A DNA stretch of 64,000 bases, from the NCBI RefSeq assembly GCF_023520895.1, contig NZ_CP026029.1, forward strand, positions 496,001-560,000, written 5' to 3'. Source of the DNA: Paenibacillus sp. PK3_47. Lineage in GTDB: Bacteria; Bacillota; Bacilli; Paenibacillales; Paenibacillaceae. Position 1 is the stretch's first letter; every line of letters begins with the position of its first letter. Of the stretch, positions 3,630 through 33,875 are shown one piece after another. The notes under the pieces are model-generated. The model searched no databases. It was not told where the DNA came from and saw only the letters and a program-made list of their open reading frames with translations. A program made the translations under genes and the position numbers.

Positions 3630-4832
3630 TTAATCAATCGTGAACAGCGATCCCGTTGTACGCTTGAACAGCTTCCACCAGCCTGCCTTAGGTACATCCT
3701 CGCCTGCCTTCAGCTCATATTCCTTGATTACCTCTGTCCCCTGATAGACTACCAGCTTCCCGACGGTCTGTCCTTTGGCAACCGGAGCTTTGATGCTGGC
3801 CGGCAGTTCCACGCTGTGGCGGATTCCCTCCTGGGTAACGCCTTTGCGCAGCAGAACGCTGTAGGTTTCTTCAGCAGTGATCGGCAGCTCTTTTTTCACG
3901 CCCTTTTCAATCTTCAGTGTCCCGATGGCGTCGCCTGCTTTGTGAACCGTGTGCATTTTGTATTGTGAAAAGAGATAGTCGAACATGCCCGATACTTCAC
4001 TGTTGCGGGTCTTGGTGTTCGGCTCCCCGAGCACAACCGCCACTGCACGCAGTCCGTCTCTGGACGCTGTAGCGGAGAGGCAGAACTTCGCTTCAGAGGT
4101 ATAACCTGTCTTCAATCCGTCAGCCCCTGTGTAAAAGCGTACCAGCTTATTCGTGTTCACCAGCCAGAACGGCTTGGCCGAATCCTTGCGCAAATAATCC
4201 TGGTAGGAGCCGGTATATTTAATAATCCGTTCATGCTTCAGCAGCTCGCGGCTGATGACGGCAATGTCGTGGGCGGAGGAGTAGTGATCCTTAGCCGGCA
4301 GGCCGTTACAGTTGGCAAAATGCGTGTCCTTAAGCCCCAGCTCTTCCGCCTTTTTGTTCATCAGGTCGACAAAAGCGCTCTCCGAGCCGGCAATTTTCTC
4401 CGCCATCGCTACAGAAGCATCATTGCCTGAGGCCATCGCGATGCCTTTGAGCATTTCGTCCACCGTCATTTCTTCACCCGGCTCCAGAAAAATCTGCGAA
4501 CCGCCCATAGAAGCCGCATACTCGCTCGTCCGCACCATATCGGTCAATTTCAAAGTTCCTTTGTCAAGCGCCTCGACGGTGAGCAGCATGGTCATAATTT
4601 TGGTAATGCTGGCCGGCGGCAGCTTGTCATGACTGTTTTTCTCATAAATGACTGTACCGGTGGCTGCATCCATCAAAATGGCGGAACGTGCACTAGGCGC
4701 CAGGTCCACAGCCGGAGCATTGCTGCTGCCGGTGCCTGCTTTGGCTTTTTCCTCCGCATATACACTCCCGGCCGATCCTAGAGCCGAAACGGCAATACAC
4801 AACACGAGCATCCAATAACGCAATTTTCTCAA
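3630..4832 (-). CDS. dacF: D-alanyl-D-alanine carboxypeptidase DacF
   Basis: A class-A low-molecular-weight penicillin-binding protein of 400 residues, secreted and membrane-associated, trimming pentapeptides of the spore or cell wall peptidoglycan. The three active-site motifs are present: SITK at about residue 75, SGN at about 135 and KTG at about 241. Residues 1-26 (RKLRYWMLVLCIAVSALGSAG...) form a signal peptide cut near VYA/EE. A TTG at 4832 has AGGAGG eight bases upstream and gives a normal signal peptide, so I prefer it to the upstream ATG at 4862. Position directly before spoIIAA matches the B. subtilis dacF-spoIIA arrangement. Confidence 0.93.
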   Translation of the reverse strand: MRKLRYWMLVLCIAVSALGSAGSVYAEEKAKAGTGSSNAPAVDLAPSARSAILMDAATGTVIYEKNSHDKLPPASITKIMTMLLTVEALDKGTLKLTDMVRTSEYAASMGGSQIFLEPGEEMTVDEMLKGIAMASGNDASVAMAEKIAGSESAFVDLMNKKAEELGLKDTHFANCNGLPAKDHYSSAHDIAVISRELLKHERIIKYTGSYQDYLRKDSAKPFWLVNTNKLVRFYTGADGLKTGYTSEAKFCLSATASRDGLRAVAVVLGEPNTKTRNSEVSGMFDYLFSQYKMHTVHKAGDAIGTLKIEKGVKKELPITAEETYSVLLRKGVTQEGIRHSVELPASIKAPVAKGQTVGKLVVYQGTEVIKEYELKAGEDVPKAGWWKLFKRTTGSLFTID

Positions 4833-4928
4833 AATGTTCCCCTCCTGAACGTAGACCTTCATTTCACAGGTACTGTGTTTCAGTGTCGTCAGAAAGGCTG
4901 GAAATTATTCCATTACACCGCAAAAATC

Positions 4929-4978
4929 CCCGTAAGGAGCAGTTACCCTGGACGGTGTAAATGCTCCTTTAACGGGGA
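4929..4978 (-). terminator. Hairpin terminator between the acyltransferase and dacF
   Basis: CCCCGTTAAAGGAGCA and TGCTCCTTACGGGG can pair over about 14 bp around a 20-base loop. It lies in the gap after the acyltransferase gene and before dacF. There is little T-tract, so efficiency is uncertain. Confidence 0.55.
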
Positions 4979-5006
4979 CCCGGATTACGGCTGTCTATAT
5001 GAGCTG

Positions 5007-6020
5007 CTAGTGCAGACGTTCTCCATAGTTCACGGCCGGGCGGCGTCCGCCCGCATGTCCAAGATACAGCCTGGACAATGCCGGATAACGGCTTGCCCAC
5101 AAAGCTGCCAACAGCGGTATGCCAACGCCCGCAGCGGTGAACATCAGCAGTCCGTAATCTGCGCCGAGAAGATATTTTAACGCGTAATTCACAGGCAAGT
5201 GCAGGTACATGACCGCAATCGTGTTGCGTCCCAAATTCCCCAGCCATGTCAGCGGGAGCAGCTTGGAAAGATGGTACACAGCCGTACAGATCGTCAGGGA
5301 AATCAGCAGCGGGACTGCCAGATCAAGGACAATTGCGTCATATTCTTTATATTTCATGTTGAGACTATAGCTGATTACACCGGCAAATTCCATGGCAAAA
5401 ACAATAGCACATAGCGGCAGCAATACAGCCAGAGCAGTGCGGGTACGGATCAGCGCAGGGATCATTGTCCGCCCGTAATAACCGATCGCATAATAAGTGA
5501 CGGCCAGCAGCGCAACATCCATGTTCCAGGGGAGATTGAAATGTTTTAGGGAGGTGAGGGAAATCAGGTGGGATATGGCGTAGGCGGAAGCAATTAGAAG
5601 GAATTGCGTTCTTTTTGAATATCTGACGATAAATCCGAAGAGGAGCTGCGTAAACAGGAGACAGGTAATGAACCAGAATACCCCATAAGGTCCGGTCAGC
5701 GACAGGCCGCCATAAAGAAGTCTCGCGAGATTTTCGGCAAAACCCATGATATTGAGGTTAAACAGCAGCAGCACAGCCGCAATGAGGAGTCCGTAGGCAA
5801 AATAGGGAGTCATCAGCCCCTTCGTCCTCTTCACTGCCCAGCCGGCGTAACGCCCGGGGTCAATCGGTTTGAAAACCAGTCCGCTGAGCAGAAAGAACAG
5901 GGGCATTCGGAACCAGGACAAATAATGATTCGCTACCGCGTCGCCGGAGTGTCCCATGACTACAAAAACAATACTGAAGCCTTTGGCTGCATCTATCCAC
6001 AGCTCACGCCGTTTTTCCAC
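5007..6020 (-). CDS. Acyltransferase family 3 membrane protein
   Basis: A 337-residue integral membrane protein of the Acyltransferase_3 (OatA/fucose-O-acetylase-like) superfamily, which transfers acetyl groups to surface polysaccharides. It opens with the family signature RRELWIDAAKGFSIVFVVMGHSG, where the His of MGH is the usual catalytic residue, followed by FRMPLFFLLSGLVF. About nine to ten hydrophobic segments follow. There is no extracellular SGNH domain, so the acceptor cannot be guessed. It is flanked by terminators on both sides, so it is probably transcribed alone, and it is absent from the corresponding B. subtilis locus. Confidence 0.85.
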   Translation of the reverse strand: MEKRRELWIDAAKGFSIVFVVMGHSGDAVANHYLSWFRMPLFFLLSGLVFKPIDPGRYAGWAVKRTKGLMTPYFAYGLLIAAVLLLFNLNIMGFAENLARLLYGGLSLTGPYGVFWFITCLLFTQLLFGFIVRYSKRTQFLLIASAYAISHLISLTSLKHFNLPWNMDVALLAVTYYAIGYYGRTMIPALIRTRTALAVLLPLCAIVFAMEFAGVISYSLNMKYKEYDAIVLDLAVPLLISLTICTAVYHLSKLLPLTWLGNLGRNTIAVMYLHLPVNYALKYLLGADYGLLMFTAAGVGIPLLAALWASRYPALSRLYLGHAGGRRPAVNYGERLH

Positions 6021-6181
6021 TTATCTTCCAACTCCTCCCAGTCTAGTTTAATTTATATTTAAGTATAGGAGAATTAACCTTATAATTCAATTTTCAACAA
6101 TAAATTGGGACTTACGTCACAAGTGTGTCCGGGGTCATATACGGGAGATCAAACACCACCGATTCGCGCTAAAAAACGCAT

Positions 6182-6222
6182 AAAAGCCGCAAGGAGCATT
6201 ATTTGCTCCCTACGGCTTTCAA
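6182..6222 (-). terminator. Terminator of the deoB-pnp-pdp operon
   Basis: AAAGCCGTAGGGAGCA and TGCTCCTTGCGGCTTTT pair around a short AAATAA-type loop. It lies 60 bases after the pdp stop and 160 bases before the acyltransferase start. Confidence 0.75.
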
Positions 6223-6280
6223 TTAAGCTGAAATGTTGGCCCTGCATTAGACATATCAGGGTCTATTCTGAAAAGATTCC

Positions 6281-7612
6281 CTAATACCGGGTTACCCCGT
6301 CTTTGGTCACCAGTGCAAATACCAAAGGCTGTGGAGGAACAGGATTAGAGGTGATGCGGTAAGCTTCCAGCACCTTGGCTTCAGCTTCACGCACCTTGCC
6401 CTCACTGGCGTCATTCACATGCAGCACTGCCAGCGTATCGCCTGCAGATACTGCGTCCCCGACCTTCAAGGAGAGCTGGATGCCGACAGCCAGATCAATC
6501 AGCGATTCTTTGGTCTCGCGGCCTGCGCCGAGCAGCATCGCAGCTACGCCGATCTCTTCGGCCTGGATGCTCTCGATATAACCGGCAGATGCCGCTTTGA
6601 CCTCAATGAACTTCCGCGCGGAAGGAAGAGTGTCCGGCGCCTCGACCTGGGAGACATCTCCGCCCTGTGCAGCGACCAGCTGCTTGAACTTGTCAAGGGC
6701 GCTGCCGTCCTCAATATGGGACTGCAGAATGGCGCGCGCTTCGGCCTCGTCCTTCGCCTTGCCGCCAAGCACAAGCATCTGGCTGCCCAGAATCAGGCAG
6801 ACCTCCTGCAGATCCTTCGGTCCGTGGCCCTTCAGGGTCTCGATGCCTTCCTTGATTTCCAGCGCATTACCGATGCCGTAGCCCAGCGGCTGATCCATAT
6901 CGCTAATGACCGCAACCGTATTGCGGCCAAGGTGCGTACCGATATCGACCATGGCCTGGGCCAGGGCGATCGAATCATCCAGCGTTTTCATGAATGCGCC
7001 GCTGCCGGTTTTGACGTCAAGCACGATGGCGTCAGCGCCGGCGGCAATTTTCTTGCTCATGACGGAGCTGGCGATCAGCGGAATGGATTCCACAGTTGCT
7101 GTTACATCACGCAGTGCATACAGCTTCTTGTCGGCTGGAGTAATGTTGCCGGACTGGCCGATAACAGCCGCGCCGATCTCGCCGACCTGGCTGAAGAACT
7201 GCTCCCGCTTCATCTCTACCGAGAATCCGCTGATGGACTCCAGCTTGTCCAGCGTGCCGCCGGTATGTCCGAGTCCGCGGCCGGACATTTTGGCTACCGG
7301 CACGCCGGCCGAAGCGACAAGCGGTGCCAGAACGACTGTTGTTTTGTCGCCTACGCCGCCGGTCGAATGCTTGTCTACTTTGATTCCGGCGATCGGGCTC
7401 AGATCCACCTGGTCTCCGGACATCGCCATCTCCAGCGTCAGATCGCCGGTTTCACGGGCGTTCATTCCGCGGAAATAGACAGCCATCGCCCAGGCCGAAA
7501 TCTGATAATCCGGAATTTCACCCTTGCTGTATCCTTGGATCAGAAAGGCAATTTCTTCACGGGTCAGCTCTCCGCCGTCCCGTTTTTTCTGGATCAGGTC
7601 AACCGCACGCAT
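6281..7612 (-). CDS. pdp: Pyrimidine-nucleoside phosphorylase
   Basis: A 443-residue enzyme of the thymidine/pyrimidine phosphorylase family. It splits uridine and thymidine with phosphate, giving the base and (deoxy)ribose-1-phosphate. The family signature is obvious: [14 protein letters not shown] for phosphate, then [20 protein letters not shown]. The C-terminal barrel-sandwich domain is complete. The ATG overlaps the stop of the upstream phosphorylase by one base (TAATG), implying translational coupling. With deoB and two purine phosphorylases it forms a complete nucleoside catabolism operon. Confidence 0.95.
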
Positions 7613-8472
7613 TATACCTGCACCTCACGCACAAAGGCACGGACAAGACCGATAAATTTCGGTTTGGTCAGGTTAGCGACTTTTACCACCTGCTCATGGG
7701 TCAGCGGCTCCAGCTCATCTCCGATCGCCATGTCAGTGATACAGGTGATGCCTAGCACACGCAGCTGGCTGTGGCTGGCTACAATGACTTCCGGTACGGT
7801 GGACATGCCGACAGCATCTCCGCCCAGGTATGCGAGCATTTTGAGCTCGGCCGGTGTCTCATAAGTAGGGCCGCTGATACCGGCATAGACACCCTGCTGC
7901 AGCACCAGCGCTTCGCCGTCAACACCTTTCACCTCAGGCGCAAGCTTCTTGGCAAGCTCAATATACTTCGGATCATAGGCACGGGACATATCCGGGAAGC
8001 GTACCCCCAGCTCCGGATCATTCGGCCCGATCAGCGGGTTGTCACCGGTCATGTTGAGGTGGTCGGTAATCAGCATCAGGTCACCGGCTTTGAACGCTCT
8101 GTTCATACCGCCGCCGGCGTTGGTGATGACCAGTGTGCCGATGCCCAGCTTGGCCATTACATATACAGGCAGCACTACCTTGCGCATTTCATAGCCTTCA
8201 TAATAGTGGAAACGGCCCTGCATAATCATGACATCCTTGCCTTCCAGCTTGCCGATGACGAACCGGCCGGCATGGCCTTCCACCGTGGAACGCGGGAAAT
8301 GCGGGATTTCTTCATACGGCAGATAGACTGCATCTTCGATTTGATCGCCCAGATCGCCGAGGCCTGAACCGAGAATCAGCCCGATGCTCGGGGAGTATTG
8401 TCCGAATCTGGATTTGATATATTCGGCCGCTTCTTTTACCTGCGTACCATAAGGGATAGTTGCTTGTGTCAT
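7612..8472 (-). CDS. Purine-nucleoside phosphorylase (trimeric type), copy 2
   Basis: A 286-residue PNP of the trimeric PunA/MTAP family, acting on inosine and guanosine nucleosides in the cytosol. Motifs are [13 protein letters not shown] (phosphate loop), [20 protein letters not shown], and [12 protein letters not shown] with the base-contacting Glu region. It is a paralogue of the gene directly upstream. The residue after the conserved TNAGG differs between the two (TNAGGGMN here, TNAAGGVN upstream), hinting at diverged substrate preference. Start: ATG with GGAGGATC upstream. Confidence 0.93.
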
Positions 8473-31722: not shown

Positions 31723-31787
31723 TTTTACAAAATAATTGGTGAAATGTGTAAAATCTTATTGTTGTATTTTAGTTCATTATGTATAAT
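31723..31787 (+). promoter_or_regulatory. Promoter of the Agr-like cluster with upstream inverted repeat
   Basis: TTGTTG (31759-31764), 17 bases and TATAAT (31782-31787) make a good sigma-A promoter about 45 bases before the first gene. Upstream, TTTTACA (31723-31729) and TGTAAAA (31747-31753) form a 7-bp inverted repeat with 17 bases between, a possible regulator site. I cannot match it to the LytTR consensus. Confidence 0.6.
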
Positions 31788-31834
31788 ATTTGCAAGATTA
31801 GGATTTTGTCAGTCTGGTCTTCGGGAGTGTCAGC

Positions 31835-32500
31835 ATGCTGAATTTCGGGCTTTTTGTGGTTTTTTCTGTGATAGAGACTTTTGCGATGTTCTTTTTTGGC
31901 TTCAAGCTGTTCAAGATTGATATTTATCCGAAAGAAATGATTTTCGCTGGTGCTATTATGGCTTTTTTCTCATATATCATCAGGGCCAACAATCAATGGG
32001 TAGAAGTAGATATCATTATTCAATATGGTTTAATGTTTTGCTTTTATTGGCTGCTGTTCCGTACTCACTTATTTTACGCGGCAATCCTCACAGGAATTAC
32101 TTATCAGGCTTACAGCTTTATTCAGCTGGTCTATATTTTCCTCCTTAATAGAATAGGCAATTTTTCGTCCCATACGTTTTATGGCATGGAAATCAGCACT
32201 TATGTAATGCAGTTATTAACATCTTGCACCGCCATTATAATTGGATACTATATCGGCCGCAAGCGCAAGGGCTTCGACTTTATTCCGGATAAGCCTGACG
32301 GCACGATCACACCCAGCAAACGTGAAATCCTCATGTTTATCCTTAACCTGCCTACTGCAGCCATTATAATTTCCATCACGCATCTTTATAACTCCGACTA
32401 CTTTTATACTGTCCCTCTAATTTATGGATTTCTATTGTTTTGTTATATTTATTTATCCTATAAAAAGGACAGGAGCGGACATGAATACCTTAAGTTATAG
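31835..32500 (+). CDS. Polytopic membrane protein of an Agr-like cluster
   Basis: A 221-residue, very hydrophobic protein with about six to seven transmembrane helices and a short basic C-terminus (YKKDRSGHEYLKL). It has the size and layout of the sensor half of AgrC-type receptors but carries no histidine-kinase or ATPase domain. GGGAG lies seven bases before the ATG; its 3' end overlaps agrB by 20 bases, so the two are translationally linked. Receptor, exporter or immunity function are all open; I do not recognise a named family. Confidence 0.75.
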   Translation: MLNFGLFVVFSVIETFAMFFFGFKLFKIDIYPKEMIFAGAIMAFFSYIIRANNQWVEVDIIIQYGLMFCFYWLLFRTHLFYAAILTGITYQAYSFIQLVYIFLLNRIGNFSSHTFYGMEISTYVMQLLTSCTAIIIGYYIGRKRKGFDFIPDKPDGTITPSKREILMFILNLPTAAIIISITHLYNSDYFYTVPLIYGFLLFCYIYLSYKKDRSGHEYLKL

Positions 32501-32999
32501 AATCGCTTCCTTAATCAAACAGGCTAATCCGCAAGAGACCAGCTCGATTGAGGTTATGCAATATGCCCTTAACATAATACTCAACAGTCTGCTCATCGTA
32601 ACGGGTTCGCTGTTCATCGGCTTGCTCACCGGCAGCTTACCGACTACCGCCGCTGCTCTCTTCAGCTTCGGCATTATCCGCTTTTTCTCGGGGGGAAGAC
32701 ATCTTACAACGGCAGCCGCATGCAATATCTTCTCCATAACCTTATGTGCATCTATACCACATCTCGCCTTCCTTATCGAAAATCACCTATGGATCATTAA
32801 CATCATTTGCTGGATTATTATGCTTATATTCGCTCCTAACCCTGACGCCAATGCTAATATTCCTCTACATTGGTATCCCTGGATGAAAGTCATAGCACTT
32901 CTATTGGTTTCTGCTAATTTTTTTGTTCATTCGGCTGTCATAGGATTGGCCTTCCTGGTCCAATCTCTAACATTAATTCCCATGAAAAGGAGGGACTAA
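32481..32999 (+). CDS. agrB: AgrB-like autoinducer-processing protease
   Basis: A 172-residue integral membrane cysteine endopeptidase that trims AgrD-type prepeptides and forms the cyclic autoinducer. The catalytic pair is visible in FFSGGRHLTTAAACNIFSI: His74 and Cys81, seven residues apart as in Staphylococcus AgrB (His77, Cys84). About five hydrophobic helices follow. The ATG at 32481 has AGGAG five bases upstream; the longer frame is the tail of the previous gene in another phase. It is followed at one base by the small peptide gene. Confidence 0.92.
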   Translation: MNTLSYRIASLIKQANPQETSSIEVMQYALNIILNSLLIVTGSLFIGLLTGSLPTTAAALFSFGIIRFFSGGRHLTTAAACNIFSITLCASIPHLAFLIENHLWIINIICWIIMLIFAPNPDANANIPLHWYPWMKVIALLLVSANFFVHSAVIGLAFLVQSLTLIPMKRRD

Positions 33000-33000
33000 T

Positions 33001-33120
33001 ATGAAAAAGACTCTTGCCCGCTCTGCATCGAAATTACTGACATCGTCTGCCCGTGTCTTTTCAACTGTATTAAAGCCTTGGGCATACAGCCCAGAAGCGC
33101 CAAAAGAATTACGGAAGTAA
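33001..33120 (+). CDS. agrD: AgrD-like autoinducer prepeptide without cysteine
   Basis: A 39-residue peptide: basic amphipathic N-terminus MKKTLARSASKLLTSSARVF, then S-T-V-L-K-P-W-A-Y, then the AgrB-recognition tail SPEAPKELRK, comparable to VEVPKEL of S. aureus AgrD. AGGAGG lies eight bases before the ATG. There is no Cys anywhere, so a thiolactone is impossible; Ser21 or Thr22 could give a lactone like Enterococcus GBAP. It was identified by position after agrB and by its tail. Confidence 0.85.
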   Translation: MKKTLARSASKLLTSSARVFSTVLKPWAYSPEAPKELRK

Positions 33121-33141
33121 TTGAACAAGGATGGGGAAAAC

Positions 33142-33474
33142 ATGCGAGTCTTACTAAACGACGGCTCTTCCCTGAATATCAGGGAAGAAGAGATATTGTA
33201 TTTTTCCAGCTATAAGAATACAATATTCGTCCATACGAAAGAAGGCGAGTTTGTTCTCCCCACTTCTCTGTCCGACCTGTATGCCGCCTATGCCAGCATC
33301 GGTTTTGAACGTCTCGACCGCAGCAATGTGGTCAGTCTCAACAATGTAGAGGATTACGATTCCGAGCGGAAGGTTGCTCTGTTTAATCAGGGGGAACAAT
33401 TCGTTACGGTATCGGAATCCAATGAATCCCGCGTCAAACGGTTTTTAGCTTTGCGCAAGAAAAAGCCACAGTAG
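33142..33474 (+). CDS. Stand-alone LytTR DNA-binding regulator
   Basis: A 110-residue protein that is essentially one LytTR domain: REEEILYFSSYKNTIFVHTK, GEFVLPTSLSDLYAAYASI, FERLDRSNVVSLNNVEDYD. This domain binds DNA in AgrA, ComE and VirR. There is no receiver domain, so it cannot be controlled by phosphotransfer in the usual way. The ATG at 33142 follows GGGGAAAAC. It lies 21 bases after the agrD-like gene and a terminator follows, closing the operon. Confidence 0.88.
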   Translation: MRVLLNDGSSLNIREEEILYFSSYKNTIFVHTKEGEFVLPTSLSDLYAAYASIGFERLDRSNVVSLNNVEDYDSERKVALFNQGEQFVTVSESNESRVKRFLALRKKKPQ

Positions 33475-33496
33475 TGTTTTAAGGTTTACGCAAAAG

Positions 33497-33535
33497 ATCC
33501 CGGCACATTTACTGTTCCGGGATCTTCCTTTTATC
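33497..33535 (+). terminator. Terminator of the Agr-like operon
   Basis: GATCCCGG and CCGGGATC pair around a 13-base loop, followed by TTCCTTTT, 20 bases after the LytTR stop. Confidence 0.85.
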
Positions 33536-33695
33536 GGATCTGAAATCAGCCAAATATTATCTCATAAAAACTATTTTATGTAAATAAAAATTCGCAGGGC
33601 GAATGACAGGAGACGGCTAACCTTCCAAATGGTACCATTTAGTTATATTAGCTGTTTTTTTACCCACTCTACTAAATAACCGATGGAGGAATCTA

Positions 33696-33875
33696 ATGGA
33701 ATATTATTTTCATCCTTCTCCGCGCCCCTCTTCTCTGGAATTGTTATCTGACGAACAGTTATTGAACATCTATGAATTGGCGGTGGAGGCAAAAGCTTCG
33801 CCTGATTTTATTGAAATTATCAAGAATGTACTTTCCGGACGAAAATTATTGGAATCAGAACATCTGGATTCTTGA
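33696..33875 (+). CDS. sda: Sda-like sporulation histidine-kinase inhibitor
   Basis: A 59-residue protein. After a short N-terminal extension (MEYYFHPSPRPSSLEL) it reads LSDEQLLNIYELAVEAKASP, then DFIEIIKNVLSGRKL. This aligns with B. subtilis Sda ([35 protein letters not shown]), the helical hairpin that blocks KinA/KinB when DNA replication is perturbed. GGAGG lies seven bases before the ATG. The N-terminal extension of about 15 residues is not present in B. subtilis Sda. It sits just after the Agr-like operon but has its own gap and terminator. Confidence 0.85.
   Translation: MEYYFHPSPRPSSLELLSDEQLLNIYELAVEAKASPDFIEIIKNVLSGRKLLESEHLDS

Follow-up and report, generated by a model that had tools for sequence, protein, structure and literature searches.

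The gene cluster

This study concerns a cluster of four genes, a candidate quorum-sensing system, in a 64,000-nucleotide stretch of the genome of Paenibacillus sp. PK3_47 (hereafter the window), which corresponds to bases 496001-560000 of a single 6.81-Mb contig, NZ_CP026029.1. The genes specify, in this order, a membrane protein (MP), an AgrB peptidase, a short AgrD-like pheromone precursor, and a LytTR DNA-binding protein (Table 1). An original prediction, made from the sequence alone, had described them as an Agr-like operon without a histidine kinase. Its four genes and their spacing were borne out by the reading frames: MP and AgrB overlap by 20 bp, a gap of 1 base separates AgrB from the precursor, and 21 bases lie between the precursor and LytTR. 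The single promoter and single terminator that it placed around the genes also stand, the former being conserved in relatives, and the latter forming a hairpin (33494-33526) with a folding energy (dG) of -21.6 kcal/mol (z -2.56; 4 of 200 shuffles were equally good). The -35 element of the promoter is weak, with 3 of 6 matches, and the promoter is absent from the list returned by a consensus scan, as is the terminator from that of a pattern scan.

Table 1. Features of the cluster and its downstream flank, in window coordinates (aa, amino acids).
Feature	Position	Strand	Description and basis
Membrane protein (MP)	31835..32500	+	221 aa; open reading frame, AlphaFold2 model, homologues, profile link to sensor units
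AgrB peptidase	32481..32999	+	172 aa; His74/Cys81; PF04647, E 3.2e-18
AgrD-like pheromone precursor	33001..33120	+	39 aa, MKKTLARSASKLLTSSARVFSTVL-KPWA-YSPEAPKELRK; open reading frame, TIGR04223 15.6 bits
Codon of Lys25, position -9 from P of PKEL	33073..33075	+	invariant in group I; candidate ring-closing residue
Lone LytTR DNA-binding protein	33142..33474	+	110 aa; PF04397, E 3.3e-12
Promoter TTGTTG-N17-TATAAT	31759..31787	+	sequence, and conservation in relatives
Conserved box directly upstream of -35	31727..31753	+	candidate LytTR operator; alignment of group-I upstream regions
MP loop 5, RKGFDFIPDK, residues 144-153	32264..32293	+	candidate LytTR contact
Intrinsic terminator	33494..33534	+	10-pair stem (centroid structure) and T-rich tail; folding
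sda	33696..33875		sporulation-inhibitor gene family
Perfect palindrome upstream of sda	33627..33640		alignment of 61 loci

The domain content of the proteins was largely as predicted. The AgrB catalytic residues His74 and Cys81 (His93 and Cys100 in the longer form of the open reading frame) were said to be intact, and both were kept in all 155 aligned AgrB proteins of at least 140 aa. The LytTR protein was confirmed as a lone domain: apart from PF04397, nothing in Pfam was matched at E up to 1, receiver included, and a comparison of its sequence with PDB chains gave no match. AgrB and LytTR both scored above their Pfam cut-offs, while MP matched no Pfam family at E up to 1 and contained no kinase domain. 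The claim of a 39-residue AgrD-like peptide stood in part, as the reading frame is present but scores below the NCBIfam TIGR04223 cut-off of 19 bits, and has Leu at -10 and Lys at -9, without the Cys or Ser that closes the ring in AgrD (positions in precursors are counted back from the P of the P-x-E-L tail).

Conservation and distribution

Homologues of MP were present in 67 of 100 genomes of the genus. The loci grouped with that of the window (group I) showed the order MP-AgrB-AgrD-LytTR, and then sda, in 60 of the 61 that were fetched as well as in the window, giving 62 copies because one locus (L087) carries a tandem pair; the 61st fetched locus (L059, 2,147 bases) gave no gene match and was dropped. 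This comparison supports the earlier view of the operon as one functional unit. Hidden Markov models (HMMs) of AgrC-type kinases and AgrA-type regulators had no match at these 60 loci or in the window, with flanks of about 1.5 kb per side for L045-L073 and mostly at least 3 kb for L074-L105; the kinase HMM was built from two AgrC-like seeds, so that unrelated kinases would escape detection. Directly upstream of the promoter, alignment of the 60 group-I loci gave a conserved box with the consensus gAAa.atttG..G.AaagTgt.aa.

The same genome contains a second kinase-free MP-AgrB-AgrD-LytTR cluster, at 1.42 Mb (L027), which belongs to a second family, group II. In total, 156 AgrB genes were examined, with 62 falling in group I, 68 in group II, 22 in a kinase type, and 4 left unassigned; the loci were drawn partly by MP similarity and partly from the AgrB matches listed, and since they were not sampled evenly these shares are no census. 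The MPs of the two groups are homologous (hhalign 99.8%), and a profile of both found matches throughout the order, in 262 of 392 genomes and 36 of 49 genera. Among the matches listed, every MP open frame across the order was 324 aa or shorter. The gene order recurs across Paenibacillales families and also on phages, as described below.

Some individual loci depart from the common arrangement. Single broken copies occur: the LytTR protein of L066 is short, at 67 aa, and the MP of L105 is split. In L087 (G025, 3920-7862), sda is preceded by a tandem of two MP-AgrB-AgrD-LytTR cassettes, both complete. The LytTR proteins of L107, L109, L112, and L116 are 239-245 aa in length, and in three of these four loci a second LytTR gene follows; the N-terminal parts of those of L107 and L112 showed no receiver match at E up to 0.1.

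Precursor peptides and the candidate ring-closing lysine

The lysine at -9 was found in all 62 group-I precursors, encoded by AAA in 33 and AAG in 29, while positions -8 to -6 vary; at -10 there was no Ser and one Cys. Group II presented a different picture, as 57 of the 64 precursors found have Ser at -10, two have Cys, and the other five have Lys(-9). All 16 AgrD peptides found at kinase-type loci carry Cys(-10). Outside the genus, 40 loci comprised 35 of Ser type, 2 of Lys type, and 3 without a found precursor, and five outgroup loci comprised 3 of Cys type and 2 without one. Every one of the 189 precursors found (62 + 64 + 16 + 3 + 37 + 3 + 4, the first 3 coming from the four unassigned loci) has either Cys or Ser at -10 or Lys at -9, and none has neither. 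The first precursor of L087 has both Cys(-10) and Lys(-9), the sole such case of the 189.

The scripted search for precursors came back empty in 16 loci (4 of 68 in group II, 6 of 22 of kinase type, 1 of 4 unassigned, 3 of 40 outside the genus, and 2 of 5 outgroups). By eye, L118 was recognized as a sixth group-II Lys type and L156 as a Ser type. Ties between anchors were decided in the genus set by a bonus of 0.01 for C, S, or K, and the scan outside the genus was run without this bonus. All three precursor types occur in the genome of the window: the Cys type together with a kinase, and the Ser and Lys types without one.

Simple arithmetic gives both kinds of ring the same size. A lactam closed by Lys(-9) over four residues would contain 16 atoms (7 from Lys, including the carbonyl, and 3 x 3 from the others), and closure by Cys or Ser at -10 over five residues also gives 16 (4 + 4 x 3). 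The autoinducing peptide AIP-I of Staphylococcus aureus is a 16-membered thiolactone, formed when Cys28 attacks the AgrB acyl-thioester (PMC4979651, in excerpt), and an altered ring size is not tolerated in the S. aureus peptide; the lactam known from that system is a synthetic analogue in which the thiolactone sulphur was replaced (PMC10482373, in excerpt). Judged from sequence, closure of the ring through Lys25 is an evenly balanced proposition, and a linear peptide product is possible. Ser(-4) was considered as another ring closer, but is less likely, as it sits in the conserved tail and is replaced by T or N in 2 of 73 Lys-type precursors, a set that had been selected for Lys(-9).

A tree of MP and AgrB from 173 loci, which excludes L087 and the split L105 and was rooted with three Cys-type outgroups, placed the Lys types in one clade of 71 with a support of 0.975. 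The corresponding tree of 127 loci showed two Lys origins, and in a tree of 155 AgrB sequences alone the Lys types did not form a single clade. On the whole, we lean towards a single origin of the Lys type.

Membrane protein

The original prediction allowed MP six or seven helices, and the AlphaFold2 model, based on 62 sequences, gives seven (predicted local distance difference test, pLDDT, 81.6; predicted template modelling score, pTM, 0.81). A fold search with this model returned no convincing PDB relative. Under the positive-inside rule, the C terminus and the loops FKIDIY, FRTH, and RKGFDFIPDKPDGTITPS are predicted to be cytosolic. The cytosolic loops 1, 3, and 5 show a variability of 0.77 bit compared to 2.41 bit for the extracellular loops (p 1.4e-6), and R144, G146, F147, D148, P151, D152, and K153 of loop 5 are invariant in the 62 sequences. 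The outer halves of the helices likewise vary more than the inner halves (1.63 versus 1.21 bit). This pattern fits variable ligands on the outside and a constant partner on the inside.

A possible origin for MP is suggested by its distant homologues. In a sample of the phylum, 26 of 398 genomes matched MP, four of them from the same family as the window and the other 22 from other classes of the phylum. The matches outside the class were mostly 150-190 aa in length (18 of 23 rows) and covered the first five MP helices. Eleven of these loci were inspected, with four further rows (frames of 403-480 aa) staying outside the set. A separate kinase gene of about 300 aa adjoins the five-helix unit in five of the eleven (L221, L223, L225, L228, and L230), with HATPase matched in all five and SPOB_a above cut-off in four (below in L221). 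In L233 the two are fused into one protein, with seven hydrophobic stretches, counted by eye, followed by SPOB_a (255-307) and HATPase_c_5 (350-454). AgrB was found beside the unit in five of the eleven loci (L220, L221, L222, L230, and L234), and neither kinase nor AgrB in the short flanks of L226 and L227.

Aligned by hhalign, a profile built from 11 sequences of this kind matched MP of group I at 97.4% (E 1e-11) and of group II at 98.0% (E 1.5e-13), and the fused protein of L233 at 99.3%; as controls, AgrB scored 0.2% and the AgrC sensor halves of the genus 5.9% and 58.8%. By virtue of this match to units that adjoin a kinase or are fused to one, MP looks like a severed sensor half which ends where the kinase would begin. 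The resemblance to an AgrC sensor half that had been predicted is supported as far as this link to SpoOB/GHKL-type kinase units goes; the direct comparison with the AgrC sensor halves of the genus is taken up below. A Pfam scan of 44 MP members (E up to 0.01) returned DUF2244 in two, PAP2 in one, and 7TMR-DISM_7TM in one, with a best E of 0.001.

Exchange of MP, AgrB, and AgrD as a block

In six pairs of loci, MP, AgrB, and the first 75 bases of agrD (from the leader to the Lys codon) share 51-62% nucleotide identity, while the flanking parts share 87-98% in the promoter region, 92-99% in LytTR, and 91-97% in sda, and identity is back at 92-97% in the last ~36 bases of agrD, which encode the conserved tail. 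The six pairs were picked from the most discordant by distance, and some share relatives and so are not independent; three control pairs were without the dip. The same dip was seen between L043 and L033, compared over ~7 kb with flanks mostly at 90-99%.

Pairwise distances across 60 loci pointed in the same direction, with a correlation (r) of 0.83 between MP and AgrB, 0.71 between MP and AgrD, and 0.46 between MP and either LytTR or Sda; the MP-AgrB correlation was 0.76 once LytTR and Sda were removed. MP, AgrB, and AgrD are replaced as a block while LytTR stays, as in agr specificity groups. The staphylococcal groups differ in the hypervariable agrB-agrD-agrC region (PMC10482373, as excerpted).

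Phage copies

Related genes are carried by phages. Among PHROG families, the membrane protein family 15604 matched MP at E 5.6e-18, and family 36013 weakly matched AgrD (E 0.006). A search with AgrB recovered eight phage records, representing five phages: Paisley and Harrison of Paenibacillus larvae, and Abouo, Davies, and Emery of Brevibacillus. Four of these five (all but Harrison) were inspected, and the order MP-AgrB-AgrD-LytTR was present in each of them: Paisley, Abouo, Davies, and Emery. Their LytTR proteins scored above the Pfam cut-off in two cases and below it in two, and a LytTR model built in this study matched all four at E 3e-10 or better. All four precursors are of Lys type.

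Paisley, Abouo, and Davies each have an integrase or recombinase gene close by, and the Emery cluster adjoins an XRE-type regulator; from these positions, one may guess at a role for the phage cassette in lysogeny. In Emery and Davies (L277, 1604-3005, and L279, 1601-3005), AgrB is preceded by a tandem of two different MP genes, possibly providing a second receptor. Other routes to mobile copies yielded little: tblastn of the window MP against the phage records gave no match, nor did MP against plasmids, and scans of IMG/VR with three MPs returned the Abouo phage contig again and nothing else. The AgrB gene is named in a list or table of two phage genome papers (the excerpted parts of PMC4909266 and PMC4168068), and a paper that covers 48 P. 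larvae phages contains none of the four terms sought in it.

Proposed mechanism and alternatives

The explanation that we favor, with moderate confidence, is that the four-gene cluster is a kinase-free quorum-sensing system, in which MP is the receptor and directly holds or releases the LytTR protein. From the patterns described, we infer receptor function, direct coupling of MP to LytTR, a lactam, and positive feedback at 31759-31787. AgrB would cleave the precursor behind position -6 and close the ring between Lys25 and the C terminus so created, a host protease would remove the leader, and the secreted peptide would bind MP from outside. Without peptide, MP would keep LytTR inactive at the membrane, perhaps via loop 5, while in its presence LytTR would be freed and act at the box upstream of the promoter, so giving a positive loop. 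This sign of the switch, inhibition relieved by peptide, is probable by analogy with the LytTR Regulatory Systems (LRS) of streptococci. A fuller version is more tentative, and we would put it somewhat short of an even chance: that the autoinducer is a Lys-macrolactam (ring K-P-W-A, with the amine of Lys(-9) resolving the AgrB acyl-thioester), and that its receptor is a severed sensor half, which controls a bare LytTR protein without phosphotransfer, in bacteria and in phages, perhaps for lysogeny decisions in the latter.

Several observations weigh against a receptor that acts directly on LytTR. Within the fetched stretch, LytTR was undetected at 12 of the 68 loci of group II and, outside the genus, at 18 of 40 (2.5 kb fetched), where L236-L252 and L256 are MP-AgrB-AgrD clusters with a Ser-type precursor; MP-AgrB-AgrD can therefore exist without an adjacent LytTR. 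The C-terminal tail of MP, which is cytosolic in the same topology and was outside the loop comparison, is variable (2.16 bit). MP distance follows AgrB more closely than AgrD, and covariation between ring and MP showed no excess of the outer over the inner face (p 0.35). The sensor-half link depends on its profile, as MP compared to L233 as a single sequence was not significant (0.8% and 16%), leaving the 11-sequence profile as the bridge. Compared with the sensor halves from two AgrC groups of the genus, MP profiles reached 0.3-0.9%, although these two groups reach only 1.7% against each other, which means that the direct comparison says nothing. Lastly, no distinct peak for a direct repeat of 21-22 bp was found upstream in either family. 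Group I was covered by 59 of its 60 loci, with L069 excluded. Scores were 5.88 at 21 bp and 5.62 at 22 bp against 5.56 for a background of five mononucleotide shuffles, and spacings of 12 bp (6.25) and 17 bp (6.40) scored higher.

Some of these points would be expected if MP were instead a partner of AgrB in peptide export, leader removal, or stability, with the receptor elsewhere. MP stays with AgrB and AgrD at the loci where LytTR was not found, its distances follow those of AgrB best, and at L220, L222, and L234 its homologues lie beside AgrB with no kinase in the short flank. Nevertheless, the homologues adjoin SpoOB/GHKL-type kinases in five of eleven loci and are fused to one in L233, as a sensor would be, and the conserved cytosolic loops 1, 3, and 5 fit a constant cytosolic partner better than they fit transport. 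We consider this explanation unlikely. The original prediction had also suggested that the circuit may borrow a kinase from elsewhere, and called for a genome search for AgrC-like kinases. This search gave 15 GHKL matches, of which the two that are AgrC-like (E 1.2e-21 or better) were followed further; they lie at 3.90 and 4.37 Mb, and such a kinase could in principle sense the peptide. However, both are adjoined by a LytTR regulator of their own (260-286 aa), and the locus at 4.37 Mb has its own AgrB and a Cys-type AgrD. Moreover, the lone LytTR protein of the window has no receiver to phosphorylate, and the candidate that is swapped and travels with AgrB and AgrD is MP, not a distant kinase, which makes borrowing quite improbable. 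At 3.90 Mb (L029), the AgrC/AgrA-like pair lies beside genes of an ABC (ATP-binding cassette) transporter, with none of the AgrB matches of the genome near.

A bacteriocin-like product with MP as its immunity protein, and LytTR responding to an unrelated signal, would account for a small, variable peptide whose neighbor, a membrane protein, changes along with it, and for the existence of phage copies, three of four of which are near an integrase or recombinase gene. It agrees poorly with the AgrB-type processing and AgrD-type tail of the peptide, with the profile match of MP to kinase sensor units, and with the finding of no Pfam immunity family in the window MP or the 44 members, and we regard it as very improbable. 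Decay of an agr locus to a functionless remnant, with kinase and receiver gone, is scarcely credible: both domains are indeed absent, and broken copies occur singly (the split MP of L105 and the short LytTR of L066), but the gene order is kept in 61 loci, the AgrB catalytic residues in 155 of 155 proteins, and K(-9) is fixed while both of its codons are used. Together with the spread of the MP family through 36 of the 49 genera in the order, and the presence of the cassette on phages, this conservation contradicts decay as a general account.

Relation to known systems

The S. aureus agr system (AgrB-AgrD-AgrC-AgrA) shares with the cluster described here the His and Cys of AgrB, the AgrD-like tail, and the LytTR output, as well as a variable cassette of peptide, processing enzyme, and sensor (as set out in the excerpted part of PMC10482373). 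It differs in that the present cluster has neither histidine kinase nor receiver, its sensor gene comes first, and the ring-closing Cys or Ser is absent, with the Lys placed one residue later. The LRS known as HdrRM and BrsRM (PMC6193735, excerpted text) likewise pair a receiver-less LytTR protein with a membrane protein, have no kinase, and are proposed to work by direct control. In these, the regulator gene precedes that of the membrane inhibitor, whereas here MP is first and LytTR last, with AgrB and AgrD between. According to the same excerpt, four of the five S. mutans LRS inhibitors contain DUF3021 or DUF2154, neither of which is matched by the window MP or the 44 members. LRS have direct repeats upstream of -35; the conserved box described here is in the right place, but without a distinct peak at 21-22 bp. 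The five-helix units of other classes share the membrane core by profile, with AgrB beside them in 5 of 11 loci and a SpoOB/GHKL-type kinase in 6 of 11, while the MP of Paenibacillales has two more helices. Phage-borne agr-type signalling genes have a parallel in Clostridium difficile phage phiCDHM1, judging by its description in the excerpted part of PMC3901668.

To the original prediction, this analysis adds the candidate lysine-type pheromone, a second kinase-free family, the swapping of the cassette, the apparent link to sensor halves, and the phage copies. No title or abstract among the matches listed reported a kinase-free AgrB-AgrD system in Paenibacillus or a natural lactam pheromone of AgrB, in searches that for the most part did not extend to subscription papers and preprints. 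If the favored explanation is correct, cyclic-peptide quorum sensing needs no two-component system, as a sensor half on its own would serve as peptide receptor and control a transcription factor directly. Lysine-closed rings would add a third class to the thiolactones and lactones among agr pheromones. An amide ring is expected to resist the hydrolysis that opens both of these, and the presence of three precursor types in one genome makes a direct comparison possible in a single organism. The phage copies, in turn, would place agr-type communication on phage genomes.

Downstream gene and promoters of the second family

Downstream of the cluster, sda is present in all 61 group-I loci, and in the window it sits behind the terminator. 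The perfect palindrome AAATGGTACCATTT is strongly conserved upstream of sda in the alignment of these 61 loci. In group II, a TATACG-type box, mostly CTATACG, was seen near -35, before TATAAT-like boxes, in L027, L136, L143, L144, L148, and L191, among the 12 of 68 upstream regions that were listed. This type of box is unlike TTGACA, and these promoters may need an activator.

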